A stretch of 64,000 nucleotides of DNA from Pseudoscleropodium purum (Eukaryota > Streptophyta > Bryopsida > Hypnales > Brachytheciaceae), in the NCBI GenBank assembly GCA_963969395.1, contig OZ017802.1:5892501-5956500 (forward strand). Reading direction: 5' to 3'. Under the pieces are notes generated by a model. That model was not told the origin of the DNA, made no database searches, and was given only the letters and a program-made list of their open reading frames with translations. A program made the position numbers and the translations under genes. Below, piece by piece: positions 140 to 45,009 of this stretch. Every line of letters starts with the position of its first letter. Position 1 is the stretch's first letter.

Positions 140-2044
140 CCATACATGAAGAAGATTTTTAGAACTTGTGTTTACAATTCATTGATCAAGTCTTAAGAAG
201 ATGCAAGTATTTCAGCCTTCCAAAAAACATGTTTTTTTTTATTACAAGAAGTGTGAGTTTACTCGTACTCAAAGTGTTTGCAAAGACATGCTCAACAGGT
301 GAAAATCATGAATCACATAATTCTTGTTTGCATCGTTTTGTGTAGTAATAATTTAGTCAATGTGATGAAATACAAGGATCTCACATTCTATTAATTGTTA
401 CCCAATTTTGGTATTATCCATGTTGCTTAGTGAGCTCTCCTCTTGCAGACTTGCACGCAGCAAGTCCAAGAAATGACCATAGCTCAAAGTGTTCCTCTAC
501 CCCCAAATACGTATACAGAATTTATTATGGATTTGTTATCTCCAGTCTTGGCTTGAGTCCAACGACAAGTCACATACTGTACGTGAGCAGACTGACGACG
601 ATATAACTACAAAAGTATCTTTTCCTTCTGAGCATGGTTTATATGGAGCTCCACCTCCGTTCCTCGAGTACTCCTGTTTGGAGTTAGATGCGACGAGACC
701 AATCCTTGCATTCCGATCCCTCGCTGCTGCTGTTGAAGGTGATGCACATCTCTCACTCGCGTTTATATTTTGTTGCTTTTCTTAGACCAAACGTAACGCA
801 AACGGGGAGAGCTGACCTTGAGCTATTTTGTAGAGGAAAATAATTCGCACTGCAGAATTTGATGCTTGCTCTATCAAAGGAGTTGAATGCGTTGGGTACC
901 TTCAAGTGTCTGAGTTTGACGTTTGCTCTGCAGTCAAATATTTTGAACATGCCTCTAGGAAGAGATCACTTGCAGAGATAACTCTAAGGTTCTCAGAACC
1001 AATTCTCCATTTCCAGGAAGAGATCATCTGAAGAGATAATTCAAGCAGAACCAATTTTCCAATATTTCTTCTATTTGTTAATCATTTCGTGGATGCCAAA
1101 TGCTTCTTAGCACAGGGGCTGGCTACAGAAAGCTAGTTTCTAACTAGTGCAAGTTGAATAATATGCTTAATTCTTTCAATTCTAGAGGAGATTTGCTTCC
1201 CGTTTTTCAGCTGCCTGATACAAATAAACACTGTATCGCCACTTTCTTTTGCTCTGTGCAATCTTGATCGACAGTGCAAGATGAGGTAATTACAAGAGCC
1301 GACCTCATAGTTCATTAACTCAGTGGTTGTTTCACGTCTAGAGTTGATTAAGCTTGTATACAAATTCAACCTTCATCTTAACTTTGAAACATGCTCACTT
1401 GGAAGTGATTGTTATCATCTGGCTACAAGTGAGCAGTTCTCATTAAAGACAGATGCGAACTTAGAAATCTTGTGAACTAAGTGTTGTGGACTTGAGGTAT
1501 TTGTTGAAGTTCCCTTTGGAGATCAGTTTTTAGACTGGAATAATTCTCAGGCAAAGCAGTCGAAGATACGGTTGAACTCCGACCTTACTGAATGAATGCA
1601 TCCAAATGTCCTCGGACGCATAGGATGCTTATGTCAAGTTTGGAATATCTGAACAAACTTCATGGATCCAAGGTTTAGTCATTAGATCATCAAAAGTAGA
1701 TCTCCTGGAATTGGATGCTATAAGCTATTCCAGATGTCTTTAAATAATTGTGAAGTGTACATTTCATTTGTGAGTGCTTTCCTTCCAGGAGTCCTGCTTC
1801 ACATATGGCCATTCAATTTTGATCAATCTGATCGTCGCCTCCACTGCAAGACAATTAATCCTCACAAACTATTTCACTGTTTCTCTGGACTTTCACAACA
1901 GTGCTAGCTGTATAGTACTTATCTGCACACATCATTGATTACTTTTCTTATGAAATGTGCATGCATCAGGATTAAGATTTGTTGGATACGAATGCAGGTT
2001 ACTTGACCCCAAGGCGACTAAATGGGCTCCGCGGATTTCACACC
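140..2044 (+). repeat. FPF1-unit upstream region, copy 1
   Basis: About 1.9 kb of single-copy-looking DNA that recurs upstream of other FPF1 copies in the window (from about 29,588, 40,955 and 46,493 on the plus strand; from about 2945, 44,565 and 53,562 inverted). Shared landmarks include a stretch near 580-760 (plus strand), one near 870-960 and one near 1480-1690. It runs into the conserved 5' leader (about 1980-2044) just before the FPF1 start codon. Short ORFs here do not keep frame between copies, so I read it as promoter and leader rather than coding. Confidence 0.7.
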
Positions 2045-2410
2045 ATGGCTGGGGTGTGGACATTCTATTTCAGTGGCATTTGCTCTCTAGACGAAAATCC
2101 GATGGCTAAAACGTCGATTCCTGGGCCAGCAATGGGGCACAAGGTGCTGGTGCACAAAGCCAGCAACACCACCATGACCAACTACGAGGAGCTCACCAAC
2201 AAGCTCCAGTCGCATGGCTGGAACCCGTACACCCAGGACGAGGAGATACGACAGTACCACCGGGGAGCCTACTGCGTCGATCTCATCACCTTGCCTGCAC
2301 AGTTCTCCGACATCCGCACAACTCACATGTACGATGTGGTGGTGAAGACTTGGTCGGCTTTCGAGGTCCGAGATGTTACTCAGAGAGCTCAGTCTGTAGC
2401 TCTCTTGTGA
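2045..2410 (+). CDS. FPF1: FPF1-like protein (flowering-promoting factor 1 family), intact copy 1
   Basis: Encodes a 121-residue member of the plant-specific FPF1 family: small, probably soluble regulators linked in seed plants to flowering time and gibberellin response; the biochemical role is unknown. Family landmarks seen in order: N-terminal MAGVWTF, the LDENP turn, HKVLVHKASN, the YEEL...L.SHGW segment, a QYHRG stretch, VDLITLP, and the C-terminal HMYDVVVKTWSAFEVRDV signature. Length fits the family (about 110 residues) apart from a short C-terminal extension past EVRDV that the second intact copy lacks. The start at 2045 sits in a strong plant context (caccATGGc). The frame stays open upstream to about 1979, but FPF1 proteins begin with M(S/A)GVW, so the later ATG is chosen. 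Single exon, as usual for the family. No frame damage seen. The precise role in this organism is inference. Confidence 0.9.
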   Translation: MAGVWTFYFSGICSLDENPMAKTSIPGPAMGHKVLVHKASNTTMTNYEELTNKLQSHGWNPYTQDEEIRQYHRGAYCVDLITLPAQFSDIRTTHMYDVVVKTWSAFEVRDVTQRAQSVALL

Positions 2411-2845
2411 ATTCGAGTGGCGTGGGCGTCCTTGAACTTTGAACAGGAAGTGAGCCTAGCTATGCAAGCTACTTAAGGAGGTTTTAATGCTTGCAATACA
2501 CTGTAAGAGAATGTAGAGTTTGCAATACTTTTTGCAATGGTTTTGCAATACCCATAAGTTTTGTTTCAATGACTTTGCAATGATCCAATATAAAGTATTG
2601 CACTGTTATTGCAATGGTATAGAAATATAATAGCATGGATTCCATGTCCAATACTTTTACATTGAATGAATCACAACTTAGCAACAGTTTTGCAATGCAT
2701 TGTTTCTTTTGTGAGATCCAAATTGAGTTCCGTTACACATTGTTCCCTTGCAAAACCATTGCAAACGCCTTGCTATTGTGTTGCAGTCACTTGCTATTCT
2801 ATTGTAGTGAGTAATTATGTCCCGGCATGTGTGTTAGAATTGCTG
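2411..2845 (+). repeat. FPF1-unit 3' flank, copy 1 (contains a MITE)
   Basis: Downstream flank shared with 32,006-32,700, 45,537-45,880, 55,286-55,640 and, in decayed form, 6540-6850. The common sequence runs from just after the stop codon into a stretch ending in gttagaattg. A MITE interrupts it at 2499. Homology stops near 2845, where an inverted FPF1 fragment begins. Confidence 0.65.
2499..2809. mobile_element. CACTA-type MITE, copy 1 (non-autonomous)
   Basis: A 311-bp non-coding element starting CACTGTAAGAGAATG and ending TTGTAGTG, the CACTA-superfamily termini (plant consensus CACTACAAGA). About 80% of its length can be followed against the copy at 32,099-32,428. The unoccupied site is visible at 6640-6660, where the same flank reads through without the insert. 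The flanking ATA is imperfectly repeated (ATA and AGTA), so the target duplication is only suggestive here. No transposase is encoded, so movement would need a CACTA transposase in trans. Confidence 0.75.
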
Positions 2846-2849
2846 GCCT

Positions 2850-2945
2850 ACGTACGAGCCATGCAAATGCAGCTGGCTAGTGAGCTCCTCATAGCTTGCT
2901 CTGGTGGTGTTGGTCGCTCTGTGCGCGAGTACATAGCAGAACATT
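2850..2945 (-). pseudogene. FPF1 fragment, inverted
   Basis: On the minus strand this matches the middle of FPF1 (from the HKA.NTTM segment to the HGW segment) with several substitutions and no usable frame. It joins the plus-oriented unit to an inverted upstream region (2945-4925), so the two units meet 3' end to 3' end. Confidence 0.6.
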
Positions 2946-4925
2946 GATCAATGATGTGCGCACATAAGTACAGTACAGCTGTTGTGAAAGTACAGAGAAA
3001 CATTGAAATATTGAAATTTGTGCGGATCAGTTGTCTTGTTGAGGAGACCATGACCACATGCATGATCCGGCCTTGTTAAGGTTGATCGAAATTGATTAGT
3101 CCAATATAGAGGAGTTCTACAGTTCTATCGGAAGGAAAGCAATCACAAATGGAATGTATTCTTCAGAATTGTTCAAGGATTTCTCGAGTATTTAGTTGAA
3201 GCATACAAATTCCAGGATACCTACACTTGATGAATTGACACCTAAACCTCTGAATGATCCCTGAATTTGTTCAGATATTTCAAACTTGACATAAGCATCC
3301 TGCGTGTCCATGGACATTTGGATGCATTCATCCAGAAAGGGTCGGAGTCCAACCGTAGCTTGGACTCCTTGATTGAGAATTATATAGATCGTCTAAGAAA
3401 TGATCTCCAAATGAAACTTCCACAGGAACTTCAACAAATACCTCAAGTCCACAACACTCAGTTCACAAGATTTCTAAGTTTGTGTCTATCTATAATGAAA
3501 AGCTCTTACTTGTAGCCAGATGCTAACAATCGATTTCAAACAAGAAGGTTTCAAAGTTATGATGAAGATTGGATTGGTATACTCAATCATTTCCAAACTT
3601 GAAACAGCGAGTATGCGATTGGCTCCGCTCTTATATGTGACATCATCCTACACTCTCAATTATTGAAACAACATTTGTACAGAGCAAAAGAAAGTGGCTA
3701 TGTATATAGTGTTCATGTGCATCAACTCAAAAATTGGAAGCAAAACCTCTAGTAAGAGTTAAGCATAGCATTACTTCTAGTAGAAGCTAGCTCTATGTAG
3801 CCAGCCAGCCCCTTTGATAAGAAGCTTTTAGCATGCATGAAATGATGAACAAATAGAAGCTAGAATCAAGGATGTGGGTTTGCTTGAATATATTAGAAAA
3901 TGAAGAAAGAAGATGGCACAGCTAGCAAATTATGATATCGAGAGGAATGGAATATTTGACCAATGAGCGAATGCCAAAGTCAGACACTTGAAGCTACCTG
4001 ATTCATGCAATTCCTTTGAAAGATTGAGCAAGCATCAAAATCTGTCCTATGAATTCTCAGACTCCCTAACAAAATATATAGCGAGGTCAGCTCTTGCGTG
4101 GTCTAAGAGAAGCGACGAATAAAAACCTTATCAGGGGTCTGCTTCTTGTTTTATTGAACTATGATTTTAGTGAAACCTTTCGAGGTCAAAATTGTGGCCT
4201 TTTTGTTGATATGTCTGTAACAATGTGCTTCCGCAATTTCAGTAATTTTATGAGCAAGACACAGATCATATAAAAAAAAAAGTATGGGACCTTACTGCAT
4301 AGTTAACCACATAAAACGAATCCAATCTAGTTATCCTTTGTTGAACAAGTGGAACGTTCAAGAAAAGGAGTGATAGTCCAGGTTGTAGGAATGACCCAAT
4401 GAACCCATGTAAGGCAGATTACGCACTGAGGGATCCTATGCAGAGCTTTCCAACTCCAGCGATCCCATGTGAATCTCACCCCGCTTACACGACTTACAGA
4501 TAATCTTACATTAATAGCAGGTCGAATTCCACGATAAAAAAGTTCTGTTTCCAAAAAGATTTGTCCATTTGTAATGGAAATAACATTGGTCAGAATATAA
4601 GCAGATACATCTCCAGCTTGTGTTTCAATTACAGGTAATGCAGTCAAGCTACCTGCACCAATTTGGTCTGACATTTTAGCGGCAGCAAGGGATGGAATGC
4701 AACGATCGGTGTCGTCTTCAAAGGGTATTCCTCTAATCCCGGTTTCGGTTCAGAGAGGCGTTCAAATCCTCTCACAACTCCAAACAGAAGTACGCGAGGA
4801 GCGAATGAGGTGCTGCATGTGAAGTTCCATGCTACTGAACAGATATTTGATAGTAATATCGTCGTCGGTCTTGTCACGAATGTGATTTTTGTTAGGCAGC
4901 AAACTGAAAAAGAACCCTGCATGTT
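2945..4925 (-). repeat. FPF1-unit upstream region, inverted copy, interrupted
   Basis: Reverse-complement copy of the FPF1 upstream region. It can be followed from the leader (near 2950-3060), through the region matching 30,900-31,080, to the segment matching 30,060-30,300 in reverse (4684-4900). It is broken at 4130-4683 by an insertion containing mitochondrial DNA. The short ORFs on either strand here are not conserved between copies. Confidence 0.65.
4130..4683 (-). other. atp1: Insertion with mitochondrial atp1 fragment (NUMT)
   Basis: The FPF1 upstream repeat stops at about 4130 and resumes at about 4684, giving a clean insertion of about 550 bp. On the minus strand, 4486-4683 encodes 60-odd residues of the ATP synthase F1 alpha subunit, with motifs [20 protein letters not shown] and [16 protein letters not shown]. 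This is the mitochondrial atp1 version: the chloroplast protein differs at the LETELFYRG stretch. It is internal only, with no start or stop, ends at SVSRV, and carries substitutions. The remaining 350 bp (4130-4485) may be other organellar DNA but I do not recognise it. It is a dead organelle-to-nucleus transfer, not a gene. Confidence 0.8.
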
Positions 4926-14400: not shown

Positions 14401-15163
14401 ACTGTTAGGTAATTTGAGCTAGTCTCAAATGACAAATTTAGAAGAAATAAAACAAAAAACAAAAAAACAAAGGAAGAATTTGATGGATTGGGAAGGAAGT
14501 TGGTTTCTAAAATCTATCACCTATAAAGTACAAAGTTCAAAGTTTTGTCGTTTAACAAAAAAGCCCAAAAAATACAAAATAACATACAAACAAATAAACA
14601 CATGGACTTTACACAAGGACTTTGTAGTCAAGGCTTTAAAGAAATTCACAAAAATTTGGAATTCCCATTGAGGAGCTCATGCAACAAAAAAAAATCAAAA
14701 GATTCTAAAAAGCTCCAACTAGTAGCATTGTCAATCTTTGGTTAAAGACTCTAGGATAAATACTTGACCCAAAATTTCTACAAAACAACACTTGCACAAC
14801 TTTCAACTACTTCAAAACACATTTAAAGATTTCAAAACTTGACGGAACCATTAAGTTCTTTAAGGGTGACTATATTCAAACTAGAAAGATGGGCTAAAAA
14901 AGCTCTATAAACATCCAATATGAACACAAAATTGGCCAAATACAAAGATTAGATAGACTAATGTGAAAAAATGTGCACATTTGAGCTACTGTCACGGACG
15001 TGCCATACCGGGCCTTATTCAGTAGTTTTGACCCTAATAGAGTCTCCACCGCCTTTGCAACAAGGATGCCTCTTAAGAACCTTCTCAAAAGCGGTGGCCT
15101 AGTGTACAAGTTGTTTCCAATGATTCTAGTAGATTCCAATAGTCTTCATTAGTTTCTATTTGT

Positions 15164-15342
15164 TTCCGGAAGTTTCCATAAGCTTCCGGAAGGTTCTACT
15201 TAGTTCTACTAGTTTTCGGAAGCTTTCACAAGCTTCCGGAAGGTTCCATTTGGTTCCACTAGTTTCCGGAAGCTTCTACAAGCTTTTAGAAGGTTCCACA
15301 AGATCCTCCTAGTTTCCGGAAGCTTCCACAAGCTTCCGGAAA
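15164..15342 (+). promoter_or_regulatory. Heat-shock-element array in U3, 5' LTR
   Basis: Five perfect three-unit heat-shock elements TTCnnGAAnnTTC start at 15,164, 15,184, 15,234, 15,264 and 15,314. Additional half-matches at 15,214, 15,284 and 15,334 keep the same phase. Spacing alternates 20 and 30 bp, so the array is 3.5 copies of a 50-bp tandem repeat and every unit stays in the 5-bp register that HSF trimers need. The last element lies about 60 bp upstream of the TATA box. HSF binding is established for this motif; heat response of this LTR is inference. Confidence 0.85.
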
Positions 15343-15401
15343 GACCTATGGATATTTCCAAAGGTTTCTAAGGCCTTATTTCGGAAGGTTCTTTAGTCTA
15401 G

Positions 15402-15409
15402 TATAAATA
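15402..15409 (+). promoter_or_regulatory. TATA box of the 5' LTR
   Basis: TATAAATA downstream of the heat-shock array and 218 bp before the LTR end; it has the expected position for the U3 core promoter. Confidence 0.75.
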
Positions 15410-15627
15410 GAGAGTCGAGGGCCATTGTCCCTCATTCTCTTCAACACCAGTTGTACCCAATCATTCTTTGACTTCATGTTATCAATACATCTTCTAGTTT
15501 TCTCATCTTGAAGCACGTTCTGAGTCGTGTGTGAGGAATCCCCTCACTTCTAGCTTGTTCTTGTCTCTGTTTGAGGTATCCCCTCAAATTTGATCTTGGT
15601 TCCATCTAAGAGTTGCCGTCCGCAACA

Positions 15628-16025
15628 GTTTGAAGAGAGTGCATCTTTCTCTAGTTCTTTTTGATATCAGGGTCTATTCTTGCAAGATAGAGCGTGGATT
15701 ACCCCTCTTCTTCAAGAAATTGTGACGCCTTAGAGGTTGTGGATTACTCACTTCTAAGCTGATATTTTCCTTTTAGCCAGTCTTCATGAGAGTTAGTACG
15801 TGGACTTGAATCGTCTTCCTATTTCTACAACTCCAATTACTTTAGAAGTACGTTTTCTATTCAGGTCAAAGGCCGAACTAAGAGATATCATCATTCGAGA
15901 GCGAGGCGAAGAATTCTACTTGAATTTTTTGAGATCTTCACTTCCTGTAGTCATCCCAAGAGTACACGACGCAAAGATTTGTTACTTCATCTACTTGTAA
16001 GCCTTCAAGAAGTACTTTATCCGAG
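15628..16025 (+). other. Untranslated leader of the chromovirus
   Basis: 398 bases between LTR and gag. An open stretch at 15,800-16,000 shows no Gag features and I treat it as leader. Confidence 0.6.
15662..15673 (+). other. Candidate primer-binding site (initiator-Met tRNA type)
   Basis: TGATATCAGGGT matches 9 of 12 bases of the common plant PBS complementary to initiator Met tRNA. It lies 34 bases after the LTR, farther than usual, so this is tentative. No better match to a tRNA 3' end is evident directly after the LTR. Confidence 0.3.
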
Positions 16026-17011
16026 ATGGGTGACGTTTCTGCTATCTAGATGAACGACGTCTTGGCCATGCTGCAGCAATTGCAGCAAGAAAACGCCAAT
16101 CTGCGAAATACTTTGGAACAACTTCAAGTTGCCCACGCTCCAGTCCATATTTCGGCACCAACGACAAATCCAATTCCGCCGGCACCAAAGGAGCCTCGAG
16201 TAAGTTTGCCAGACAAGTTCGATGGGAACCGAGCAAAATTTCGAGACTTTGTGAATCAAAGTCGGCTTGTTTTCCGCCTTCAACCCTAAAGATATCCAAT
16301 CGCAGAAATACAAGTTGAGCTCATTGGAACCTTGCTTACCGGAACTGCGTTATCGTGGTTCTCGCCATTGTTGGAAAAAAATTCTCCACTTTTGGCAAAC
16401 CTCGATCAATTCTTAGAAGAATTCAATAATACTTTTGGAGAAAATGATCGAGCCCTCATAGCAACAACAAAACTTTGAACTTTGCAACAACGATCGCGTG
16501 CAGCCTCAACATACGTTGCAAAATTTCGACAACTCGCTTGCAATGTGGAGTGGGACGACAACGCTCTCATCAGCGCGTTTCGATGGGGACTGCGTGACGA
16601 TGTAAAAGACTTGCTATTGAACTTGCCCAGACCGACCACTCTATCTAAGGCCGTGACTCAAGCAGTTAATTGCGATAATCGACTGTTTGAGCGCCGACAA
16701 GAGCGACGATCAACACCTGGATTCTATCGAGCAGAGTATGCAGCTCCAACTCGCCAAACATTTCAAGTGTGGCAATGCCAGAGCCCATGCAAATCGACGC
16801 CTCAAGAGTCAAGAGATTGACTCAAGAAGAAAAAGACCGACGTCGAAAGGAAGACTTGTGCATGTATTGTGGAGGAAAGAACCACCGCGCACACAACTGT
16901 CCTATAAAGGTTGTAGTTCCAAAGTCGCACAAATTTCGATACACCTCAAGCACTTTCGAGCCGAGATGCGAAGAAATGGACTTGGGAAACGACATTAGCC
17001 AACCACAGTAG
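16026..17011 (+). pseudogene. gag: Gag of the chromovirus, disrupted
   Basis: Capsid/nucleocapsid precursor. The first ATG is at 16,026, but an in-frame TAG (16,047-16,049) follows seven codons later and directly precedes a second ATG (16,050). The coiled N-terminus (MLQQLQQENANLRNTLEQL) leads to the conserved Gag core: FDGNRAKFRDFVNQ, then LIGTLLTGTALSWFSPLLE, then the YVAKFRQLA segment. Further in-frame stops are TAA 16,287-16,289 and TGA 16,476-16,478. A one-base frameshift near 16,745-16,770 moves the C-terminus into another frame, where a CCHC zinc knuckle (CMYCGGKNHRAHNC, about 16,859-16,900) ends at TAG 17,009-17,011. Each stop is one C-to-T step from a sense codon. No functional Gag can be made from this copy without rescue in trans. 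Confidence 0.85.
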
Positions 17012-17016
17012 GGACC

Positions 17017-19107
17017 GTGCGGCTGGCAGATATTGTCAAGTCATCAGGTCCTATCCTATCCTCTAAAGCCTCTCCATGTTTTGATATTCCACTTAAAATA
17101 GATTTTTATCCGCATATCATAAAGGTCAAAGCCTTGTTAGATTCCGGAGCCTCTGCCTGTTTTATTGATAAAGACTTTGTAGAACAATATAACCTTCCCG
17201 TAATTCCTAAAAAATATCCTGTTGCAGTAGAAGTTATCGATGGTAGACCCTTGATCTCGGGAGATGTCACACACGAGACTAAACTCTTAGACATTAGTCT
17301 AGAAGGACATCAAAGCACCGTTGTTTTCAATGTCATCAGTTCCCCTTCTAATCCTCTCATTTTAGGCCTTTCTTGGCTAGATAGAAATAATCCTGATATA
17401 GATTGGAATAAGCGAAAGTTAACGTTCCAAACTACACCTAGATATCCTGTAGTTGCCCCAAAACTTCATTCACATCAAATACAAGGGACCAAGGCTAAAA
17501 CACCATTGATGGTCGGAGCCCGAGCTTTTATGAGAGTTGCAAAGAAGGGGAATACGTTTGTAGTGTATACAATTCCGACGCCTCAACCCTTTCAAGGATC
17601 AACCGAGTTACCAACACAATATGAGCAATATCGGGACGTATTTGAGAAGAAGAACGCCGATACGCTTCCTCAACATCGACCGTACGATTGCGGCATCGAA
17701 CTACAAGAAGGTGCACAACCGCCATTTGGCCCAATCTACAGTCTCTCCCAAAACGAATTTGCTGCGTTGCGAGATTATTTAGACGAAAATCTTGCAAAGA
17801 ATTTTATTCGGCACTCCAAATCACCGGTAGGAGCTCCTATCTTATTTGTGAAGAAAAAAGATGGTTCCCTTCGAATGTGCGTGGATTATCGTGGACTGAA
17901 CAAAGTCACGATCAAGAATCGGTATCCATTACCGCTCATCTCCGGACTTCTCGATCAGCTTGGCCAGGCAAAAATCTATACTAAGATTGATCTTCGCGGA
18001 GCGTACAACTTAATACGCATCAAAGAAGGTGACGAATGGAAGACTGCGTTCCGAACAAGGTATGGACATTTTGAATACAATGTCATGCCATTCGGTCTTA
18101 CCAATGCACCTGCTATCTTTCAACATTTGATGAACGATATCTTCCGTGAATTCTTGGACGATTTTGTGGTTTGCTACCTTAATGATATTCTCATCTACTC
18201 GAAGAACGAAGAGGACCACAAAAAACACGTTCAATTAGTGTTGAAAAAGCTGCGCAACGCTGGACTATACGCCAAGCTCGAGAAGTGCGTTTTCCACCAA
18301 CCCCATGTCGAGTTCTTGGGCTACATTGTTTCTAGAGAGGGTCTATTCATGGACCCAAAGAAGATCCAGACGGTGATCGAGTGGAAGAGACCGGCAACCA
18401 TTCGAGACGTTCAATGTTTCCTGGGATTCGCAAACTTCTATCGAATCTTCATCCAGAACTATTCCAAGATTGCTGCTCCGTTGACTCGATTGACTTGCAA
18501 AGACAAGCTTGAGTGGAGTACGGAAGCAGGCCAAGCATTTGAAACTCTGAAGAAGGCATTTACATCGGCGCCTATCTTGACACATCATGACTTTCAAAAG
18601 TCGTTCTTCCTAGAAACGGATGCTTCTGATTTTGCCCTTGGAGCGGTCCTCTCGCAATCTAGCAAAGACGGACGCCTCCATCCTGTCGCATTCCATTCAA
18701 GAAAGTTCACTGCCGCGGAGATCAATTACGAAATCCATGACAAGGAACTCTTAGCTATTGTTGATTCATTCCAAGAGTGGCGACATTTCCTCGAAGGAGC
18801 TCAACATCCGGTTACAGTCTATACCGACCACAAGAACCTTGAGTATTTCATGTCTGCTAAGGTGTTGAATCGACGACAAGCCCGTTGGAGTATATCGCTT
18901 TCGCGCTTCAACTTTGTCATCACCTACCGCCCCGGTTTCCAACAAATTCGATTTGACGCTCTTTCTCGACGAGCGTATCTTGCACCCAAAGAGGGAGACG
19001 CAACTTACGATCAGCAACGGTCTACTCTAATCAAGCCCGAACAACTCCAGCTCAAGGCTATGCGCACCACAACTTCGGTAGATACATCGTTTCTCCAAGA
19101 AATCTGA
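17017..19107 (+). pseudogene. pol: Pol part 1: protease, reverse transcriptase, RNase H
   Basis: A 696-codon open stretch in a different frame from the end of gag; the frame is already open from about 16,999. Aspartic protease: DSG at residues 42-44. RT: about residues 225-420, with the first catalytic Asp at residue 325 (KIDLRGAY), the FGLTNAP motif, and the active-site box reading YLND at 387-390 instead of YLDD. The codon at 18,181 is AAT where GAT is expected, so this RT is predicted inactive. RNase H: TDAS (Asp about 535), DKELLAI (Glu about 577), YTDHKNL (Asp about 604) and DALSRR, all present. The stretch ends at TGA 19,105-19,107, after which the same frame continues, so this is an internal stop within pol rather than the gene end. 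Confidence 0.9.
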
Positions 19108-20370
19108 GTGAGTTTGCAATCTGATCCTTTGGCCTTGAAACTCAAGAACAATGCTGGTAATCCCAGCCTTGGAGAAATCCCAAGAATGGATTCTCAAATT
19201 CCTGATTCAGAGGTTGTAGATTTGGAATCTCCGAACCAACCTACGTCTAGTCCGCAGATCTGTAGATCATATGGAGATGAGACACTCCGAGATGATTATG
19301 ATCCAAGATTCCAGTTCCAAGATGGGCTGCTATATTATCAAGGATTGTTTTATGTCCCTGAAGGCCCATGTCGGCTCCAAGTGCTCCAATCCCGACACGA
19401 TTTTCCATCGGCGGGACATTTTGGTTATAACAAGACCATAGAGCTCATATCTCGGGATTTCTGGTGGCCCCAAATGTGGCCCCAAATGTGGAAGGCCGTT
19501 AAAGAATATGTCACGACATGTGACACTTGTTCAAGGTCCAAGATTCCTCGTCATCGGCCATACGGACTACTTCAACCATTGCCAATTCCTGAAAAGCCAT
19601 GGACATCCATATCCATGGACTTCATAGTGGATCTTCCGCCATCCAAGACCTTTGATTCTATTTTTGTTGTTGTCGACCGGCTCACCAAGATGGCGCACTT
19701 TATTCCATGTCACAAGACAGTTACCGGCGAAGAAACGGCAAAACTCTTTGTAGACAATGTCTACAGAATCCATGGCTTACCCGCCGATATTATCTCTGAT
19801 CGTGGGACGCAATTCACATCCAAGTTTTGGCAATCCTTGTTCAAAATTCTAGGGGTGGAGATCAAATTGTCTTCAGCATACCATCCTCAGACCGAGGGAC
19901 AAACCGAGCGCGTCAACCAAGTATTGGAACAGTACTTGCGCTGCACCATCAATTACCATCAAGATTATTGGACGGACTTATTGCCACTGGCAGAGTTTGC
20001 ATACAACAATACATTGCAAGGGTCTATCCGACAGACGCCTTTCTTTGCAAATTACGGCCATCATCCAAAGTTTGATCAATTCAATCTCAACATCTCAGAG
20101 AATCTTGCTGCTACAGATCTTGCTACCCGACTATCTGATATCCAGAAGCAGATGAAAGAAAAACTTCTTGAAGCCCAAGAGCATCAGAAAACCAATGCAG
20201 ATAAGTCTCGCAAGCAACATCCTTTGATTTCTATTGGAGACAAGGTTTGCTCCGTCGAAATTTGGCTGCTCCGTCGAAATTTAAAGACTCAACGGCCATC
20301 TGACAAACTTGACTACCGCCGCCTAAGGCCGTTTTCAGTCACCAAACAAATCAACAAGGTGGCTTATTGA
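19108..20370 (+). pseudogene. pol: Pol part 2: integrase
   Basis: In-frame continuation of pol beyond the TGA at 19,105. The HHCC zinc finger has His 97, His 104, Cys 138 and Cys 141 of this stretch. The DDE core has Asp 171, Asp 231 and Glu 267, the last two exactly 35 residues apart as in retroviral-type integrases. A 12-bp tandem duplication (19,465-19,488) adds four residues (WPQM twice) inside the zinc finger. Near the C-terminal GPY/F region a 16-base segment occurs twice, 19 bases apart (20,248 and 20,267), adding five residues before LLRRNLK. The stretch ends at an internal TGA (20,368-20,370) in the conserved VAY.LELPPSMK region. Confidence 0.9.
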
Positions 20371-20682
20371 TTGGAGCTACCCCCTTCTATGAAGATTCAT
20401 CCCGTATTTCACGTCTCTCTCCTCGAGCCCTACAAAGAATCAACACTGCCAGGAAGGATTCAAGAATCTCCGCCTCCAATTGAAATCGAAGGTGAAGAGG
20501 AATTTGAAGTTTCAGAGATTCTTGACTCCCGCATCCATCGACGACGACTTGAATATCTTGTGCATTGGCAAGGCTACGAAGTCAGCGAAAGAACATGGGA
20601 GCCTACCTCTAATCTCGACAACGCCCCTGAAATGATTCAAGAATTTCATCGGCAATATCCGCAAAAACCAAGGAGCGTTTGA
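20371..20682 (+). pseudogene. pol: Pol C-terminus with chromodomain
   Basis: In-frame continuation after the TGA at 20,368. It begins with the end of the integrase C-terminal module (KIHPVFHVSLLEPY) followed by a chromodomain: FEVSEILDSR, YLVHWQGY, RTWEPTSNL. Chromodomains bind methylated histone H3 tails and steer chromovirus integration into heterochromatin (family knowledge). Natural stop at 20,680-20,682. The aromatic residues expected at the Y.V.W core positions are present. Confidence 0.9.
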
Positions 20683-20878
20683 GTTTAATGCGTCTGGACC
20701 AACACCAACACTAAGTTCTGCAAGATTTTTCTTGGTGCTGGTGCAGATGCAGAGATTTTGAACTAAAACGGTGGTGGTATCGACGAGGTAACAATATACT
20801 AGCTCAGTTTTGAGGGGACAGGCCTTCGAACTCACGTCGGCCGAAAAAGTCGATAACATCGTAATCACCACCTCGCTG

Positions 20879-21115
20879 ATGTCTCATATTGTCATTCACA
20901 CAACCTTATACTTCAGTTTAGCAGCGCTACTATTTTTTACCGCCGTCGGACTCGTCGCCATTCGCCGCCTTTTTGCTGCCAACATTTCGTCTAACGGTAT
21001 TCTGTACACCGAACATTCTTTCCTTTTGTCGCAGTCACGTGAAGTCCCACGTGAACATTCTCTTTTCTATTCATACTATTGGCCTACAGGTGAACTCGTG
21101 GAACTCATTCCTTGA
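20879..21115 (+). CDS. Small ORF with one hydrophobic segment between pol and the polypurine tract
   Basis: 78 codons from ATG 20,879, in a frame different from pol. Residues about 8-27 (LYFSLAALLFFTAVGLVAI) form one plausible membrane span followed by RR. Its stop (21,113) abuts the polypurine tract. Nothing identifies it. It may be a real accessory ORF of this element family or a chance reading frame; comparison of other family copies would decide. Confidence 0.2.
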   Translation: MSHIVIHTTLYFSLAALLFFTAVGLVAIRRLFAANISSNGILYTEHSFLLSQSREVPREHSLFYSYYWPTGELVELIP

Positions 21116-21123
21116 AGGGGGGG
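21114..21123 (+). other. Polypurine tract
   Basis: GAAGGGGGGG three bases before the 3' LTR; standard primer site for plus-strand synthesis. Confidence 0.85.
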
Positions 21124-21126
21124 TGA

Positions 21127-21764
21127 TGTCACGGACGTGCCATACCGGGCCTTATTCAGTAGTTTTGACCCTAATAGAGTCTCCACCGCCTTTGCAACAA
21201 GGATGCCTCTTAAGAACCTTCTCAAAAGCGGTGGCCTAGTGTACAAGTTGTTTCCAATGATTCTAGTAGATTCCAATAGTCTTCATTAGTTTCTATTTGT
21301 TTCCGGAAGTTTCCATAAGCTTCCGGAAGGTTCTACTTAGTTCTACTAGTTTTCGGAAGCTTCCACAAGCTTCCGGAAGGTTCCATTTGGTTCCACTAGT
21401 TTCCGGAAGCTTCTACAAGCTTTTAGAAGGTTCCACAAGATCCTCCTAGTTTCCGGAAGCTTCCACAAGCTTCCGGAAAGACCTATGGATATTTCCAAAG
21501 GTTTCTAAGGCCTTATTTCGGAAGGTTCTTTAGTCTAGTATAAATAGAGAGTCGAGGGCCATTGTCCCTCATTCTCTTCAACACCAGTTGTACCCAATCA
21601 TTCTTTGACTTCATGTTATCAATACATCTTCTAGTTTTCTCATCTTGAAGCACGTTCTGAGTCGTGTGTGAGGAATCCCCTCACTTCTAGCTTGTTCTTG
21701 TCTCTGTTTGAGGTATCCCCTCAAATTTGATCTTGGTTCCATCTAAGAGTTGCCGTCCGCAACA
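21127..21764 (+). repeat. 3' LTR of the chromovirus
   Basis: 638 bp. Same heat-shock array at 21,301-21,479 and TATA box at 21,539-21,546. Differs from the 5' LTR only at 21,363 (C), which restores a GAAgcTTC dimer in the array. Confidence 0.95.
21301..21479 (+). promoter_or_regulatory. Heat-shock-element array in U3, 3' LTR
   Basis: Counterpart of 15,164-15,342, in the same phase and with the same five perfect elements plus one extra intact GAA/TTC pair. If active, transcription from here would read out into flanking DNA beyond 21,765. Confidence 0.85.
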
Positions 21765-22985
21765 ACTACCAACAATAGAATTAAGCATTGTTTGACTTAG
21801 AAGGAAGAATACTATAGCAAATGAAATGTTTGAGGCCTTAAGAAAACCAAGGTCTCCAATGGATTGTATTGATTTTTTTGTGTTTATATCCATTCCTATG
21901 TTTGTGCCTATACTATTACTGTAACCTACTTATTCTAAATTCCAACCTAAAAGTATGTGTTTGCATTCCTAAATCTACTTGATACCATGTCACCCCTCAT
22001 ATCCCAACCTACAAAAACCTCTTGTATAGGAACTTGATGCCTAGCCTTGTGATTGTGCTTGTCTTTGCATCTTTGCTTATAGTAGCCTATACACCATCCA
22101 TGCCAAATTCAAACCCACAAAAACATATTGTATTTATGCCTATGCTTCTACACCTACTCTATTATGCCCCCTACTTAAATTCCAACCTACAAAAACTTCT
22201 TTCAAAATGAATTGACACCTTTAGGTTTGTGCTCTAACTCAACATCCCTAACTCAACTAGTCCTTATATCCCCACCTTTAGATGGTTGCAGTAAAGACCA
22301 ATTGGTTTCTGTAGCATTTTGTCAAAACTGCAATTTTTTTGTGTGGTACTATAAAATACAATTTCAGAAAATGAAAATCAAGTGTGCAAAACTTATGTGT
22401 CTTTATAGGCTTAGGCACAAAATTGTAGTTTCTAAATTTAGTATTACAATACAAAACAATCCTAATTATTGATCTGAAAAATCGACAACTAAAAGTATTG
22501 CTGTGAATACTATGACTATTTGCAAGTACTAAAACAATACTACTTGAGAAAAAAACAATTTATCATAGATTATAGATACAATGAGGTTTAAATTAATAAT
22601 AATTATCAAATTATGAAACAAGAAAACAAAAAATTGAAAATTTGTGAGTACTTGAAGGGGATTAGAATTCAAAAGAAAATCCAGTCAAAACCATCTTCAA
22701 TTATCATAAATGGACGTGCAAGGGAAACCTATTTGTGCAAATATGGAGGCCATAAAATAATATATTTCTAGATTCCCTTTGGTAGACACACGTCATCCTA
22801 TAGTGAATATAGACCACAAAAATTTCAACTTTAGATCATAAATTTTGGATGTTCCCGAGTACTATCCCCTAAACCTCAAAATTTGACAAATTAGCAAAAT
22901 TAATATATAAACGTAATATGATTTTTTCTTTAATTTCTAAAAAGCAAAAGAAATGATTGCAATCAAGTTAGCCATCCCAATAAAA
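21765..22985. other. AT-rich flank of the retrotransposon
   Basis: No supportable gene. Around 21,930-22,200 an imperfect motif (attccaacctacaaaaac) recurs three or four times at irregular spacing. The two ORFs at 22,022-22,472 show no family features. Confidence 0.4.
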
Positions 22986-29587: not shown

Positions 29588-31669
29588 TACAGCCAAAGCT
29601 AGTAAGAGTGTGAAACTGGAAAGGGTGTAAGGCCGGCTGGGTAACAAAAATATTGGTCGTCCATCGGTATCAGAGATGAGTAACATGACCGTCGCAACTG
29701 GCCTGCGTTCAAGATCAACATGTCCGGTGAGGAGCGCATTCAAAGGGAATGTGATGTGAGCTTGTTTTCCGTTCAATCCGTTCTGTGTGTGGCCGTCTGT
29801 CATGTGCGGATCATATATTGCCCGTCATTTTCATCTGAACGTGTAAGAGATTATAATCTGGTACTAAGCAGAACCAGTCCAGCAGTCATCCTTGTGAAGA
29901 AGGGACAACCGGTGACGGTACGATGGGAAATTAATTTGGAATTAACTTCGTAAGTTTTTGTAACTTGGAAAAAGATAATTGAAAGGACAGTGACACGCAC
30001 AGCAAGAATAACTACGTTATGGATTTGTTATCTCCAGTCTTCGCTTGAGTCCAACCAAAAATCACATACTGTACGTGAGAAGATCGATGACGATATTACT
30101 ACGGAAGTATCTTTCCATTAGCATGGTTTATATGCAGCACCTCCTTCGCTCCTCGAGTACTTCTGTTTGGAGCAGTGACAGGATTTGAGCGCCTCTGCCT
30201 CTGAACCGGAACCGGGATTCCAAGGCATGCCCTATGAAGACGAAACGATCTTTGCATTACGATCCCTCGCTGCTGAAGGTGATACACGTCTCACTCGTGT
30301 TTTTGTCGCGTCTCTTAGACCACAGCACTTCGAACGGCGAGAGCCGACCTCGCTATTTTGAAAAGGAAAATAATTCGTAGGACAGATTTTGATGCTTGCT
30401 CTATCAAAGGAATTGCGTGCATCCGGTAGCTTCAAGTGTCTGAGTTTGGCATTCGCTCTTTGGTCAAATATTTCATTCCTCCAGGAAGAGATCATTTTCT
30501 GGGTGTGTCGTCTTCTTTCATAATCTAATTCAAGCAGAACCAATTCTTCATTTCTTCCGTTTGTTAATCATTTCGTGCATGCTAACTGCTTCTTATCCAA
30601 GGGGTGGGCTTGCCTACAGAAAGACAGTTTCTAGTGTAAGCTGAATGCTACGCTCAATTATTTCTGGAGGAGTTTTGCTTCCCGTTTTTGAGCTGATACA
30701 CATAAACGCTGTGTCGCCACTTTCTTTTGCTCTATGCAATCTTGATCGAGTGCAGGTTGATGTTTATTACAAGAGTCGACCTCAGTCGCTGTTTCACGTC
30801 TGAAGATGATTAAGCTTGTGTACAAATTCAACCTTCATCTTGGAAGCGATTGTTAGTATCTGGCTACAAGCAATTGCTTTTCATTAAAGACACGCACGAA
30901 CTTAAAAATCTGGTGAACTGAGTGTTGTGGACTTGAGGTACGTACTTGTTGAAGTTCCTGTGGAAGTTCCATTTGGAGGTCAGAAATCTTTGAATGTGAA
31001 GTATAGATTCCATTGGTTTGTGAGTGCTTTCCTTCCGGTAGGACTCCTTGACATTGCGCCATTACATTTCGCTCATTCTTACCAAGGCCGGATCAAGCAC
31101 GTGCTCGTCTTCGTCTCCACCAAGTAGAAGACTCACTACAACCACTATAAGAGAATGTAGAGTTTGCAATACTTTTTGTAATAGTTTTGCAATGCCCATA
31201 TATTTTGTTTCAATGACTTTGCAATGGTCTAATATGAAGTATTGTATTAATGTGTTTGCAATGGTTTAGCAACAATTTAGAAATATAATAGCATGGATTC
31301 AATGCTCAATACCTTTACATTGAATCCATGCTATTATATTTCTAAACTGTTGCAATTTCTAAACCATTGCAAACACAGTGCAATAGACCATTGCAAAGTC
31401 ATTGAAACAAAATTTATGGGCATTGCAAAACCATTGTAAAAAGTATTACAAACTCCACATTCTCTTATAGTGCTAATCCGCACAAACTATTTCAATGATT
31501 CTCTGCCCTTTCACAACGTACTTACAGTGCTGAACTGGACTAATCTGCACAGATCATTGATTAATTATATTCTTATGAAATGTGCATGCATCAAGCTTAA
31601 CATTTGTTGGGTACAAATTCAGGTTACTTGACCCCTGGTCGACAAATCTGGCTCCGAGGATTTCACACC
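29588..31669 (+). repeat. FPF1-unit upstream region, copy 3 (most complete)
   Basis: Full upstream unit of about 2.1 kb in plus orientation, ending in the conserved leader before the FPF1 start. It matches copies at 140, 40,955 and 46,493. It is interrupted at 31,135-31,472 by a foldback MITE. Short ORFs (for example 29,720-29,953) lose frame in the other copies. Confidence 0.7.
31135..31472. mobile_element. CACTA-type MITE rearranged into a full-length foldback
   Basis: Begins CACTACAACCACTATAAG and ends CTTATAGTG. The two halves are near-perfect reverse complements over about 160 bp each (31,144-31,306 and 31,311-31,472), meeting at a short centre flanked by gcatggattcaatg and its complement. 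Each half equals the first half of the MITEs at 2499 and 32,099, so the element is a head-to-head duplication of one end. The empty site is visible at about 51,583 (gactaatccgcacaaac). A transcript through it would form a long hairpin. Confidence 0.85.
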
Positions 31670-32005
31670 ATGGCTGGGGTGTGGACGTTTTATTCTGATG
31701 GCGTTTACTCTCTAGACGAAAATCCGATGTTGGAAACGTCAATTCCTGGGCCAGCAATGAGGCACAAGGTGCTGGTGCACAAAGCCAGCAACACCACCAT
31801 GACAAGCTACGAGGAGCTCAACAGCAAGCTCCAGTCGCTTGGTTGGTACCCGTACGCCCAGAACAAGGAGATGCGGCAATACCGGGGTGTCAACTGCGTC
31901 GATCTCATCACCTTGCCTGCACTTTTCTCCGACATCCGCACAACTCACATGTACGATGTGGTGGTGAAGACTTGGTCCGCTTTCGAGGTCCGGGATGTTA
32001 CTTAG
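31670..32005 (+). CDS. FPF1: FPF1-like protein, intact copy 2
   Basis: Encodes 111 residues, the typical FPF1 length. Same landmarks as the copy at 2045: MAGVWTFYSDGVYSLDENP, HKVLVHKASNTTMTSYEEL, LQSLGWYPYAQ, VDLITLP and the C-terminal HMYDVVVKTWSAFEVRDV before the stop. Start context caccATGGc is conserved. It is over 80% identical by eye to the 2045 copy and lacks that copy's C-terminal extension because its stop comes directly after EVRDVT. Frame fully open, so it may be functional. A foldback MITE lies about 200 bp upstream and a CACTA MITE about 95 bp downstream, so its promoter and 3' region differ from copy 1. Expression is unknown. Confidence 0.9.
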   Translation: MAGVWTFYSDGVYSLDENPMLETSIPGPAMRHKVLVHKASNTTMTSYEELNSKLQSLGWYPYAQNKEMRQYRGVNCVDLITLPALFSDIRTTHMYDVVVKTWSAFEVRDVT

Positions 32006-32700
32006 ATAGCTCAGTCTCGAGCTTGTGAGTTCAAGTGGCACGGGCATCCACAAATTTTGAAAAGGAAATGAGCCCAAGCTACTTAATTAATTAAGGAGCA
32101 CTACAAGAGAATGTAGAGTTTGCAATACTTTTTGCAATGGTTTTGCGATGCCCACAAATTTTGTTTCAATGACTTTGCAATGGTCTAATATGAAGCATTG
32201 CACTACATTTGCAATGGTTTAGAACTTACAAGAGTGTAGAAATATAATAGCATGGATTCAATGTCCAATACTTTTATATTGAATTAATCACAACTTAGCA
32301 ATGGTTTTGCAAGGCATTATTTCTTTTTAGAGATTCAAACTAAGTTCTGTTATACATTGTTTCATTGCATAACCATTGCAAACGCCTTGCTATTGTGTTG
32401 CAGTCACTGCTTTCTATTTATTGTAGTGGAGGGTCAGTGCTTGCAATAATTACAGTATGTCCCTGCATGTGCGTTAGAATTGGCATAATTTCTAATCTGG
32501 ATCTCTGGTAGAAGGATTCGGAAACACCTCCATTTCCGTCGGTTGATACTTCCAGGGAATTGAAATTTGTGTGTTTAATTCCTGCGTCTCCTGCTTTCCC
32601 CGATCGAGCATTCTCTTGTTGGAACGAGTACTCGTCTGCATGAATATGACATTCTCCAACTTCTGGTTGGGAACACCTTAAGCAGAAGATCAGCAACTTT
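32006..32700 (+). repeat. FPF1-unit 3' flank, copy 2 (contains a MITE)
   Basis: Standard 3' flank, split by the MITE at 32,099-32,428. After the MITE it continues with the segment containing gttagaattgg, then cctccatttcc, then gggaacacctt. Confidence 0.65.
32099..32428. mobile_element. CACTA-type MITE, copy 2
   Basis: 330 bp, starts CACTACAAGAGAATG, ends TTGTAGTG, flanked by the exact 3-bp duplication GAG (32,096-32,098 and 32,429-32,431), as expected for CACTA elements. Internal sequence is collinear with the copy at 2499. No coding capacity. Confidence 0.85.
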
Positions 32701-34029: not shown

Positions 34030-34249
34030 TCTTTCATACAACATGAGGGACACTATATATAGACATTATACATAAAGATTTTACCATATGAAAATAGAGT
34101 TGTGATGGTATCAAAAATGAAGTGGTTAAATGATTTATAAATATATGACTCAATCGACTATCAGATGCACTAATGCAAGAGTCAAAAATAATAATTGCAT
34201 TTAAAGAACAATGGCATTTGTCTAGGAATGTTTTGAATTACAAGAGCAT

Positions 34250-35339
34250 GTGCTACAAGGTGTTTGGTACAACCTATACAACTGTGTCTCGTGCAAGTCA
34301 GGGATAAAGCTCCCATTCCTTGAGAAGTTGATGAGGTTGTTTGAGGATGAAGGTGGTGTTAGAAAAGTGAGAATGAGATGGGTTTTTTGTTCATGCAAAC
34401 TTCCAGCAAATGTAATTAAAGATTTATTGAAAGACATCCACAACTCAAATGAGCTTTTCATTGCACTTGGGAATACAAAAGGCGTAGAGAATGAGAACTT
34501 GGCAAAAGTGATTTGTGCAAAGGCAATGGTACTTTGGACAGTGAGGTATGGAGGGAATATGATGCCATCATGTGTGCATATTGATGCAACTAACTATGTC
34601 TTTAATAGAGCATATGATGTGGTCAACCAAAAAGTAGTGAAAATGATGTACATCAATAACAATCATCTTGGTAAGGTCTAAACTCTTTGCTATAGATAGA
34701 AGTCAACACACGCAAATAGAATTGATTGTACCTATATATCATTAAGTTTGTCAATAATTTCAATATGTATATATGTCTTAGGAGTATTTTACTTTTGTAT
34801 TGATCTAAACTATGATGTTTTTTTTAAGTTGTGTAGCACAAAAGTTAGCGAACAAGTTAGACTGGAAAGAATTTATTGCATTTATATATCATGAAGTTTT
34901 TCAATAGTGCTAATATGTATATTTGTCTTAGGAGTATTTCACTTTTGTATTGTTCTAAACTATGATGTTTTTTTAATTGTGTAGCACAAAAATTTGCAAA
35001 ACAAGTTAGAGTGGAAAGAATTTATCTTATTTATATATCATGAAGTTTGTCAATGGTGCCAATGTGTATATGTCTTAGACTCTTAGGAGTATTTTACTTT
35101 TATATTGTTCTAAACTATCAATGATGTTTTTTAATTGTGTAGCATAAAAGCTTGCAAACAAATCAGAGCGGGTATCAATGGCTGAAAATGTGGAAAATGA
35201 AGAATTGAAATCACCAACTTCAAAAGATAATAAACCATCAACATCAATAACAAATTTTGGTGTTGTAGCAACAAAGTGTCAATTATTGAGAACATCATCA
35301 ATGGATTCTACAATAGCGATTTTCAAGGCAAGAAGATGA
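34250..35339 (+). pseudogene. BAH-domain gene fragment A (ASI1/SG1-like)
   Basis: The first coding segment (34,250-34,670) gives a BAH-like domain: YNLYNCV, KLPFLEKLMRLFEDE, RKVRMRWVF, then KDIHNSNELFIALGNTKGVENEN and a C-terminal NYVFNRAYDVVNQKVVK. The order and the NELF.A.G.GV.N.N motif resemble the plant ASI1/SG1 family, whose members bind chromatin and RNA and affect transcripts of TE-containing genes. A donor GTAAGG follows at 34,671 and an acceptor AG at 35,141-35,142. The spliced frame meets TAA right after the junction, where block B has CAA. The downstream exon (35,143-35,339) is otherwise similar to block B (VENEELKSPTSKDNKPSTS) but ends early by frameshift. The N-terminus is missing or decayed, so it is a pseudogene. 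Family assignment is moderately sure. Confidence 0.6.
34717..35165 (+). repeat. Tandem repeat of the intron end, three copies of about 150 bp
   Basis: The segment from tatatatcat.aagttt through cttaggagtattt, cttttgta.tg.tctaaactat, ttaattgtgtagcacaaaag to the start of the next exon occurs three times in a row. Each copy brings its own potential acceptor (gtgtag at about 34,840, 34,985 and 35,142). Block B has two copies. Confidence 0.8.
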
Positions 35340-39060: not shown

Positions 39061-40954
39061 TAGGTATTATTTAGGATAATTCATGTGATAACTTTTAGGT
39101 CAGAACCAGGTTGGTTAATATCTAGAGGTGTATATATTTCTATATTAATAAATATAAGTGTGTACTAGATGTGAAGAGTTACACAATTAAAATAATGAAA
39201 TGAAACTACTAAATGATACATGTATGGAACTATGAAATGAAGCCACAAAATTTGTGTGCCCCTTCAATGACAATTGTTTTATTTCAATAGAAATAGATTT
39301 TTGAAGGATTTTTGATGCCAATCCTCCTATCTTCGATTGATTTCAGTTGTAGCCCAAAGATTTAAGGAGTTTTAGTCTGCTTTTCTAAATAGAGTTATTA
39401 CAATAGATTAATTGGGTATAACTATTGGCTAGAGATATGTGCCATTATAGATTGTACCATTAGATTTGATTGGATGTAACTTTGGCAAACTTCTATGCAC
39501 TTCAAATTGACCAAATCTTGTATGAAAGTCCAAAAAAATTAAAATTATATATAAAAGAGTGCAATAGTTTATAGTTGCAGCTTGCAAGGAGAGAATAAGA
39601 ATTTTCCGTTAACAAAATTGTTAGAGAGGCTCATAAAAAGTAGGGGAGAAACTTTTAGGTGTCTTAGATGTCAAGATGTGAAAATGGAATTTGGAATACT
39701 GCCAATTTAATGAAATTCCTTATAAGTTTAAATTGCCCTTCCAAAGACTAAACTTTGTCCAATCATAACTTCTTCTAAGAACATACAAATTCAATGAACT
39801 TTGTATTATTCAAAATAGCATTTACTTAGAAGTGATAGATTGTAATCATAAACTCTTGATCCAAAAATCACAATAGCTTTATCACCTTATATAGTGTGGT
39901 TGATTGGCACAAGTTGTGTTTTTATCAAGTTTTGTTGGTTTATCTTGCAGTTCACATTCAATAGGCAATAAAAAAGATCTATCACTTGGAGGTACAATGG
40001 ACTACATCCAGACATCCAATTAACAATAATTTTTATATAAACACTAAAACTTGGTTGTTCTCATTCAAATATCAAGGGTAGTTGTTGAAAAGAAGCACTT
40101 GTGGTTTTCAATTAGATGTAAAATGAACCAACATATCCTAATTAAGGATATTAATCTTCTAAATTTTTTCCAAGTAGAAGTTAGAGAATCCTAATTCCTA
40201 AAAGACAAAGGCCATTTTTTTTGTTATAAAACATTAAAAATTGCATTTTTTATTGTGTTTATTCAAAAAAACAAAAATAACACTTGCTTTGGAAAATAAA
40301 ATCACATGGTAAAAATCTCACCAAGTTTGATTGTACAAATTAGAGGATATGAACATTCAAAATTGGAAAAAAAATTTGAATGCTGCCTTATAATTCCAAT
40401 GTTGACTTTGACCACTATTTGTGAAAAAAATTTGCATCGAAGATTTTGAATTAAAAAATCTACCATAACAAGAATAATGTTATATATATGTTATCCAAAT
40501 TTCACTTCAAAAATTCAAAAAATATATCAAATACATCCAAAAATATCTTGCAATTGAGACAATGCAAATTTGATAATATACTAGTCATTTTTGCTAACAT
40601 GTTTTCTTTGACCATTTAAGAATACAAGGCATGAATTCTTGTTTACATGCTAAGTTTTCAGTAATAAGTAATAAGATATATTAAAACAAATGTATGATGA
40701 CTTTTTTAGAAGTGTTAAAATTAGGTTGTTGGCTCGTTGCATCCAACTTATGAAAGGTGATTTTTTATTAATTTCAGATACCTTGCTAGAGGGTAAATGT
40801 CAAAAATTGCCCCCTATTTTGTGAGGCTTAAATTTTGTATTTCATTGTGTCATTGAGCTCATTTGGGGTCTATGATTGCAAATATGAATTCAAAATTTGC
40901 AAATTTGATCATATGTGGCAACAGTATTGCCGTGTGTGTAAAATAAATAGAATA
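39061..40954. other. AT-rich intergenic DNA
   Basis: No gene seen. A short segment near 39,655-39,735 (cttagatgtcaagatgtgaaaatgg) recurs at 56,740-56,800. Confidence 0.4.
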
Positions 40955-44560: not shown

Positions 44561-44564
44561 TGAT

Positions 44565-45005: not shown

Positions 45006-45009
45006 GAGA

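Follow-up and report, generated by a model that had tools for sequence, protein, structure and literature searches.

A length-variable array of heat-shock-element-like decamers in the LTRs of a plant chromovirus family

The window, a 64,000-nucleotide stretch of DNA, contains an LTR retrotransposon at 14990-21764 with a 179-bp array of TTC and GAA units in each of its LTRs. The array is HSE-like beyond chance. Its best explanation, which we regard as probable, is that it constitutes a compound heat-shock enhancer and that the element would be activated in heat by HSFs of the host. HSF binding, heat activation, the start site and an advantage to the element are what we infer from the sequence.

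The element and its array

The features of the element and its LTRs are as follows.

14985..14989, + strand: presumed left target-site duplication, four of five bases as in 21765-21769
14990..15627, + strand: 5' LTR, 638 bp, TGTCAC...GCAACA, from self-comparison
15124..15163, + strand: upstream arm, four decayed decamers, from triplet positions and the decamer print
15164..15342, + strand: HSE array of the 5' LTR, 18 decamers with five perfect TTCnnGAAnnTTC, 179 bp
15402..15409, + strand: presumed TATA box TATAAATA, from sequence, 60 bp downstream of the array end
15436..15444, + strand: presumed R start (5' end of the RNA), with its complement directly downstream of the 5' LTR
15628..15639, + strand: presumed self-primer binding site, placed by a 9-base complement
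16999..19104, + strand: pol open stretch with protease, RT and RNase H (PF08284/PF13650, PF00078, PF17917/PF17919)
19108..20367, + strand: pol open stretch with integrase zinc-binding and core domains (PF17921, PF00665)
20503..20652, + strand: chromodomain after the integrase (PF00385, E 3.5e-17)
21114..21126, + strand: polypurine tract adjoining the 3' LTR, from sequence
21127..21764, + strand: 3' LTR, from self-comparison
21301..21479, + strand: HSE array of the 3' LTR, a single base different from the 5' copy

By its domain content the element is a chromodomain Ty3/gypsy retrotransposon (chromovirus), as the first-pass annotation had called it: chromodomain, RT, RNase H and integrase were all found. 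The Pfam domains at 16999-20367 follow the order PR-RT-RH-INT, which is the gypsy order and not that of Ty1/copia, and 7948 of 7950 scored proteins match the pol piece. The best PDB match of the chromodomain is that of CBX5 (E 9.7e-13), with matches of the HP1/CBX type. Each of the two pol stretches closes at an in-frame stop. The LTRs are 99.84% identical, their sole difference being one base inside the array; despite this near identity, gag and pol of the window copy contain in-frame stops. Either this copy was already defective when it inserted, or it became so recently. The integrase zinc-binding region contains a 12-bp tandem duplication (19464-19491; 2.3 copies, 100% match, in frame). 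Perfect 5-bp repeats were found at the ends of three other family LTRs (L009, L010 and L011). The presumed R start is a perfect 9-base complement of the stretch directly downstream of the 5' LTR, and its position, 15436, is 34 bp downstream of the first base of TATAAATA at 15402. A complement between R start and primer site is the arrangement of self-priming Tf1/Tcn1 elements. The element is probably self-priming and likely belongs to the Tcn1 clade.

Perfect copies of TTCnnGAAnnTTC start at 15164, 15184, 15234, 15264 and 15314 in the 5' LTR (n = 5) and at 21301, 21321, 21371, 21401 and 21451 in the 3' LTR (n = 5). All eight GAA and 14 of the 16 TTC triplets of the 179-bp array share one mod-5 class (22 of 24 triplets), which confirms the earlier claim of five perfect elements and half-sites in one register at 15164-15342 and 21301-21479. 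In-register TTC falls at 0 mod 10 and GAA at 5 mod 10. Printed in tens, the array resolves into decamers with TTC at positions 1-3 and GAA, or a decayed form of it, at positions 6-8; in the window copy no more than 8 of the 18 decamers contain GAA itself. The TTC register starts about 40 bp upstream of the array, and in this upstream arm the triplets at 15124, 15134 and 15154 are in the array register while the one at 15145 is one base off. TRF reports 3.8 copies of 50 bp and, overlapping with them, 11.8 copies of 10 bp. The basic unit of the array is 10 bp. The first-pass annotation had described 3.5 copies of a 50-bp repeat in a 5-bp register; the 50-bp repeat and the single register stand, the copy number is about 3.8 and the basic step is 10 bp. 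Its distance of about 60 bp between the array and TATAAATA agrees with the positions of the array end and of 15402-15409. The window copy has five 3-unit sites upstream of the presumed TATA box, and its longest perfect run is shorter than four units.

In 2000 dinucleotide shuffles, 3-unit HSEs occurred at a mean of 0.0105 per shuffled array and a maximum of 1. Because a tandem repeat multiplies one accident, a null of random tandem units was simulated too. At least three perfect HSEs within 179 bp arose at a frequency of 0.00045 from random 50-bp tandem units (20,000 units of LTR composition) and a continuous 5-bp HSE at 0.0028 from random decamers (2,000,000 decamers); both frequencies are for one LTR, and scanning many LTRs would raise them. 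The best 6-unit chain of alternating GAA and TTC in the LTR matches 17 of 18 bases, a score reached in none of 300 shuffles (best 15). The best 4-unit score of the window LTR, 11 of 12, was reached in 4 of 300.

Taken together, the array and its upstream arm comprise 23 majority decamers. TTC is among their most constant positions (22, 22 and 20 of 23), and positions 6 and 10 are nearly free; the G at position 9 is as constant as TTC (21 of 23), and the decamers are non-independent. In the family arrays, which have a strict 10-bp period, the commonest decamer is TTCCGGAAGC (114 of 898) and CCGG recurs. The second commonest, TTCCACAAGC (95 of 898), is without CCGG and keeps TTC.

Other repeats were seen in the window. 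Two related stretches of about 2.5 kb (34243-36912 and 57209-59712) are 86-93% identical in pieces and make up an unnamed repeat family; each has an open frame of about 150 aa, for which no Pfam match was found. Repeats in direct and inverted orientation, most of them 73-83% identical, form a network that involves 1036-4134, 30056-32418, 40953-47964 and 50318-54985. It includes an ankyrin-repeat frame at 52218-52850 and consists either of old duplicated genes or of repeats. No relative was found in a protein search with 52218-52847.

Array length and phase in the family

We compared 80 family LTR loci, namely the best 40 of 193 found with the array as query and the best 40 of 191 found with a query from below the array. 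These are the closest copies only, with seven places present twice and 72 distinct sequences. The array interval, measured between fixed flanks and with 53 bp of the upstream arm included, ranges from 122 to 282 bp, and 72 of the 80 loci fall on one 10-bp ladder; off-ladder lengths partly reflect where the flank alignment ended. Among the 40 loci found without the array query, the interval is 232 bp in 13, 182 bp in six, 212 bp in five and 252 bp in three, with two loci each at 122, 172, 202, 233 and 242 bp and one each at 132, 162 and 223 bp. The LTRs of these 40 loci have 1-7 TTCnnGAAnnTTC sites (median 4). At least one three-unit site is present in all 80 loci, with up to nine in one LTR. 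The longest perfect run is three units in 71 loci, four in four, five in three, seven in one and eight in one, i.e. runs of 4-8 perfect units occur in nine of 80. The locus with eight perfect alternating GAA/TTC units, L063, is a stronger canonical HSE than the window copy.

Fifteen LTR pairs lie about 6 kb apart. Array length is equal in 13 of them, a flank-end shift in L028 being set aside, and differs by 100 and 40 bp in the other two. Divergence within pairs is 0-1.6% in 14 cases and 3.1% in L057/L070, which may be two different elements rather than one pair. L006 and L060, with 0.57% mismatches and arrays that differ by exactly 100 bp, look like one young element, which would mean that array length changes around or after insertion.

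The family alignment that the first-pass annotation had proposed as a check gave the expected picture, in that array length varies and phase is largely kept. Its further suggestion, selection for phase-keeping amplification in 5-bp multiples, was not supported. Steps of 10 bp are expected from slippage between decamers, or from their recombination, under neutrality, and selection on phase is unproved. Three independent single-base phase breaks were found by eye inside the arrays (L009, L053 and L023/L024), in about 14.6 kb of distinct intervals, as compared to nine small indels in 28.9 kb of flanks; the two rates are thus similarly low. L023 and L024 are the two LTRs of one element, and since both carry the phase-breaking insertion, this element very likely moved with it. 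For substitutions we compared the 232-bp arrays, of which 45 of the 80 loci supplied 34 distinct sequences, and excluded CpG sites. Per site and sequence, triplets show 0.0176 raw differences and linkers 0.0273; singletons number 11 in 72 triplet sites against 18 in 57 linker sites (Fisher p 0.06), and shared variants five against nine. Split by base, the sign is mixed (for C, 0.039 in triplets and 0.052 in linkers; for G, 0.059 and 0.031). We do not claim constraint on triplets over linkers, as the raw advantage goes once the base is considered. The 29 LTRs found by the array query (triplets 1.6%, linkers 2.2%) are biased by that query and were left unused.

The 25 bases of the core promoter around TATAAATA have 189 matches genome-wide at up to three mismatches, and the double-HSE pattern TTCnnGAAnnTTC-7-TTCnnGAAnnTTC has 230 in 313 Mb; both reversed controls gave 0. 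The two were compared over the first 100 places listed of each, with contigs C1, C40 and C41 covered in both. On these three contigs a double HSE lies within 700 bp upstream in 36 of the 43 LTRs with an exact promoter and is absent in seven, and 49 of 52 distances from double HSE to promoter are equal mod 10. Of the 96 double-HSE matches there, 52 were placed in this way next to an exact promoter and 44 were not, with a promoter list that covers exact sites. By a coarser count among 100 listed matches, 45 of 67 sites either are near a family match or have a partner at 5-9 kb. Eight double-HSE matches, several of them 20 bp apart, occur at 33337080-33337522 on the minus strand of C1; this is perhaps an array much longer than those of the 80 loci. 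Protein and pattern searches of viral contigs found no relatives, and none were found among plasmids.

An RT search in which 150 of 900 candidates were scored gave at least 61 matches at 83-100% identity; the other RT matches listed scatter at about 64-81%, with a large group at about 55-63%. Six relatives with RT identities of 74-81% were followed up (L102-L113). The LTRs of the sister elements L102, L104 and L108 (RT 81, 79 and 77%) begin like the LTR of the array family, with TGTCACGGATGG in L102 and L108 and TGTTACAGATGG in L104. The L102 LTR was delimited at 254 bp; those of L104 and L108 were recognised, each covered by two overlapping pieces. No 3-unit HSE was found in the LTRs of these three sisters. 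For L106 and L110 no LTR was found. The older relative L112 has a single 3-unit site in an LTR-like stretch, and its 3' partner L113 is without it. The 1.6-kb 5' regions of L114 and L115 (RT near 59%), in which LTRs were undelimited, contained no 3-unit HSE. Because the three sisters are without the array, its gain in the family of the window element is the simplest reading; loss in the sisters is the alternative.

Host promoters and competing explanations

From the character of its contigs the host is a plant, presumably a bryophyte. One contig starts with plant-type telomere repeats (108 CCCTAAA in 800 bases, L087), and a 115-kb contig begins with plastid group II introns and has frames that we take to be rps12, rps7 and ndhB. 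Five HSF DNA-binding exons were found among ten candidates. Small-HSP matches number 18, and promoters were read at eight of these loci (L094-L101). HSEs are present in six of the eight, five of the six positives being related copies (L094-L098). All five copies have GAAGGTTCTAGAG, which in four of them stands 50-60 bp above a matched TATA box; four of the five also have a distal TTCTGCAAGCTTCTGCAA, which is like the LTR decamers, and L094 has a variant of it. The promoter of L100 has a perfect 4-unit HSE. No convincing HSE was found in L099 (none) and L101 (weak). Chain scores were set against 300 shuffles each for seven of these promoters, L098, which is like L097, being left out. The 6-unit scores of L094, L095, L096, L097 and L100 (14-16 of 18) were reached in 0-2 of 300 shuffles, those of L099 and L101 in 289 and 35 of 300, respectively. 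The 4-unit scores are 10 of 12 both in L095-L097 (reached in 10-16 of 300) and in L101 (4 of 300), and the 4-unit contrast is weaker than the 6-unit contrast. In its placement above the TATA box the LTR array resembles these small-HSP promoters.

If the array works as a compound enhancer, host HSF trimers would bind its TTC/GAA units in U3. The units mix perfect (TTCnnGAAnnTTC), gap and step types (the last with one TTC per 10 bp) on one helix face; step units would be offered nearly throughout the array and perfect 3-unit sites at intervals, at least 60 bp above the TATA box. Heat would then set off transcription from about 15435, followed by copying of the element. The array may have originated in the family LTR by decamer duplication and duplication of 50-bp blocks, and slippage or recombination between decamers would keep shifting its length. 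Phase would stay intact during such changes, since the unit is one helical turn. According to the available text of PMC4552642, HSF trimers read perfect, gap and step arrangements, and the step HSE, nTTCn(5)nTTCn(5)nTTCn, has lower activity. In Brassicaceae, as far as PMC5059998 could be consulted, transcripts in heat rise as much as a hundredfold where the HRE has three units and as much as a thousandfold where it has four, and gap and step types are mostly insufficient for heat induction; the same source describes how duplication of a proto-HRE makes an HRE in COPIA elements and how heat induction tracks HRE type. The LTR has 18 CG and 14 CHG sites, so methylation or silencing could override HSF, and DNA methylation could block heat activation of the LTR.

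The array may instead be a neutral minisatellite, in which slippage multiplied an accidental TTC/GAA decamer, with phase as a by-product and no part for HSF. The 10-bp ladder of 72 of 80 loci, the exact 100-bp difference between L006 and L060 at 0.57% mismatches, the triplets without clear constraint and the phase-broken array in both LTRs of L023/L024 all fit such a history. Against it, random 50-bp tandem units yield at least three perfect HSEs at a frequency of 0.00045, the array stands above the TATA box as in host small-HSP promoters, and TTC is among the least variable parts of the decamer (22, 22 and 20 of 23), with the reservation that decamers are non-independent and the G at position 9 reaches 21 of 23. 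We consider the neutral origin unlikely.

LOB-domain proteins are factors that read TCCGGA. An enhancer for another regulator, such as a reader of this motif, or a 10-bp-periodic nucleosome-shaping stretch with constitutive promoter activity would account for the prevalence of TTCCGGAAGC (114 of 898), the recurrent CCGG and the strict 10-bp period, but not so readily for TTCCACAAGC (95 of 898), which keeps TTC without CCGG, for perfect HSE grammar of up to eight units in one LTR, or for the HSEs of the host small-HSP genes; we judge it improbable. Still less credible to us is that HSFs bind the array with an output other than heat activation, i.e. developmental, oxidative or desiccation expression, or repression via some HSFs. 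In the consulted part of PMC7466625, heat is one of several cues, besides development, ABA and dehydration, to which expressed TE families of P. patens respond, and PMC4552642, in its available passages, has an atypical step-type HSE that appears to repress the human UBC promoter. Perfect 3-unit sites near the TATA box, however, resemble the activating HSEs of PMC5059998 (available part).

Known systems and meaning

The sources cited in this section were available in part, and the comparisons are limited to those parts. HSE-driven heat-responsive LTRs are already known in copia elements, as are heat-induced gypsy elements, and a similar role has been suggested in TCN3/TCN12. ONSEN/COPIA78, COPIA37, TERESTRA and ROMANIAT5 likewise have clustered nGAAn/nTTCn units in the LTR, and the strong HRE of ONSEN came from a duplicated proto-HRE (PMC5059998); HSFA2 binds the ONSEN LTR (PMC3907296). 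The Brassicaceae COPIA elements are copia elements of flowering plants with clusters of up to six units (PMC5059998), whereas the present family is a gypsy chromovirus with a length-variable decamer minisatellite. The ONSEN promoter is free of CG and CHG (PMC3907296), in contrast to the 18 CG and 14 CHG sites here. The Cryptococcus elements TCN3 and TCN12 also have putative LTR HSEs and mobilise more at 37 C; they differ in being fungal. TCN12 has a single putative site and TCN3 has two, and an array is not mentioned in the text available (PMC12810828). Caenorhabditis Helitrons likewise spread HSEs through a genome as a transposon family, but they are DNA transposons of an animal (PMC6927752).

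The P. patens family RLG1 belongs to Tcn1, the clade in which we would place the window element. This chromodomain family is heat-repressed (PMC7466625), which counts against heat activation of the window element. Tcn1-clade chromoviruses of mosses and lycophytes share with the window element a chromodomain and, should its host be the presumed bryophyte, non-seed plant hosts, and their descriptions do not mention an HSE array in the parts available (PMC6317226, PMC2864245). Most moss and club-moss Tcn1 elements are without tRNA-type primer sites and are predicted to be self-priming, unlike other plant chromovirus clades (PMC6317226); in SM-Tcn1 of Selaginella neither priming mode was found (PMC2864245). 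RLG2 of P. patens and conifer gypsy elements are likewise Ty3/gypsy, and their RNA rises in heat; an HSE array is not mentioned in the accessible passages (PMC7466625, PMC9780303). Among open-licence PMC papers, as far as their text was available, we found none that describes a chromovirus LTR with an HSE array.

It is conceivable, though we give it little credence, that the family has spread nearly two hundred portable heat-shock enhancers, graded in strength as a 10-bp dosage series, through the genome, with array length tuning heat transcription of both the element and neighbour genes and solo LTRs serving as host heat promoters.

Should HSFs drive the array, heat capture by HSEs in LTRs, known from copia elements in flowering plants, would take in a chromovirus from a probably early-diverging land plant as well. 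It would also be built differently, as a length-variable decamer minisatellite instead of one fixed HRE. The variants of 122-282 bp in otherwise similar LTRs form a series in which HSE number can be set against heat output, and an LTR so rich in CG and CHG offers a case for asking whether heat activation remains possible.
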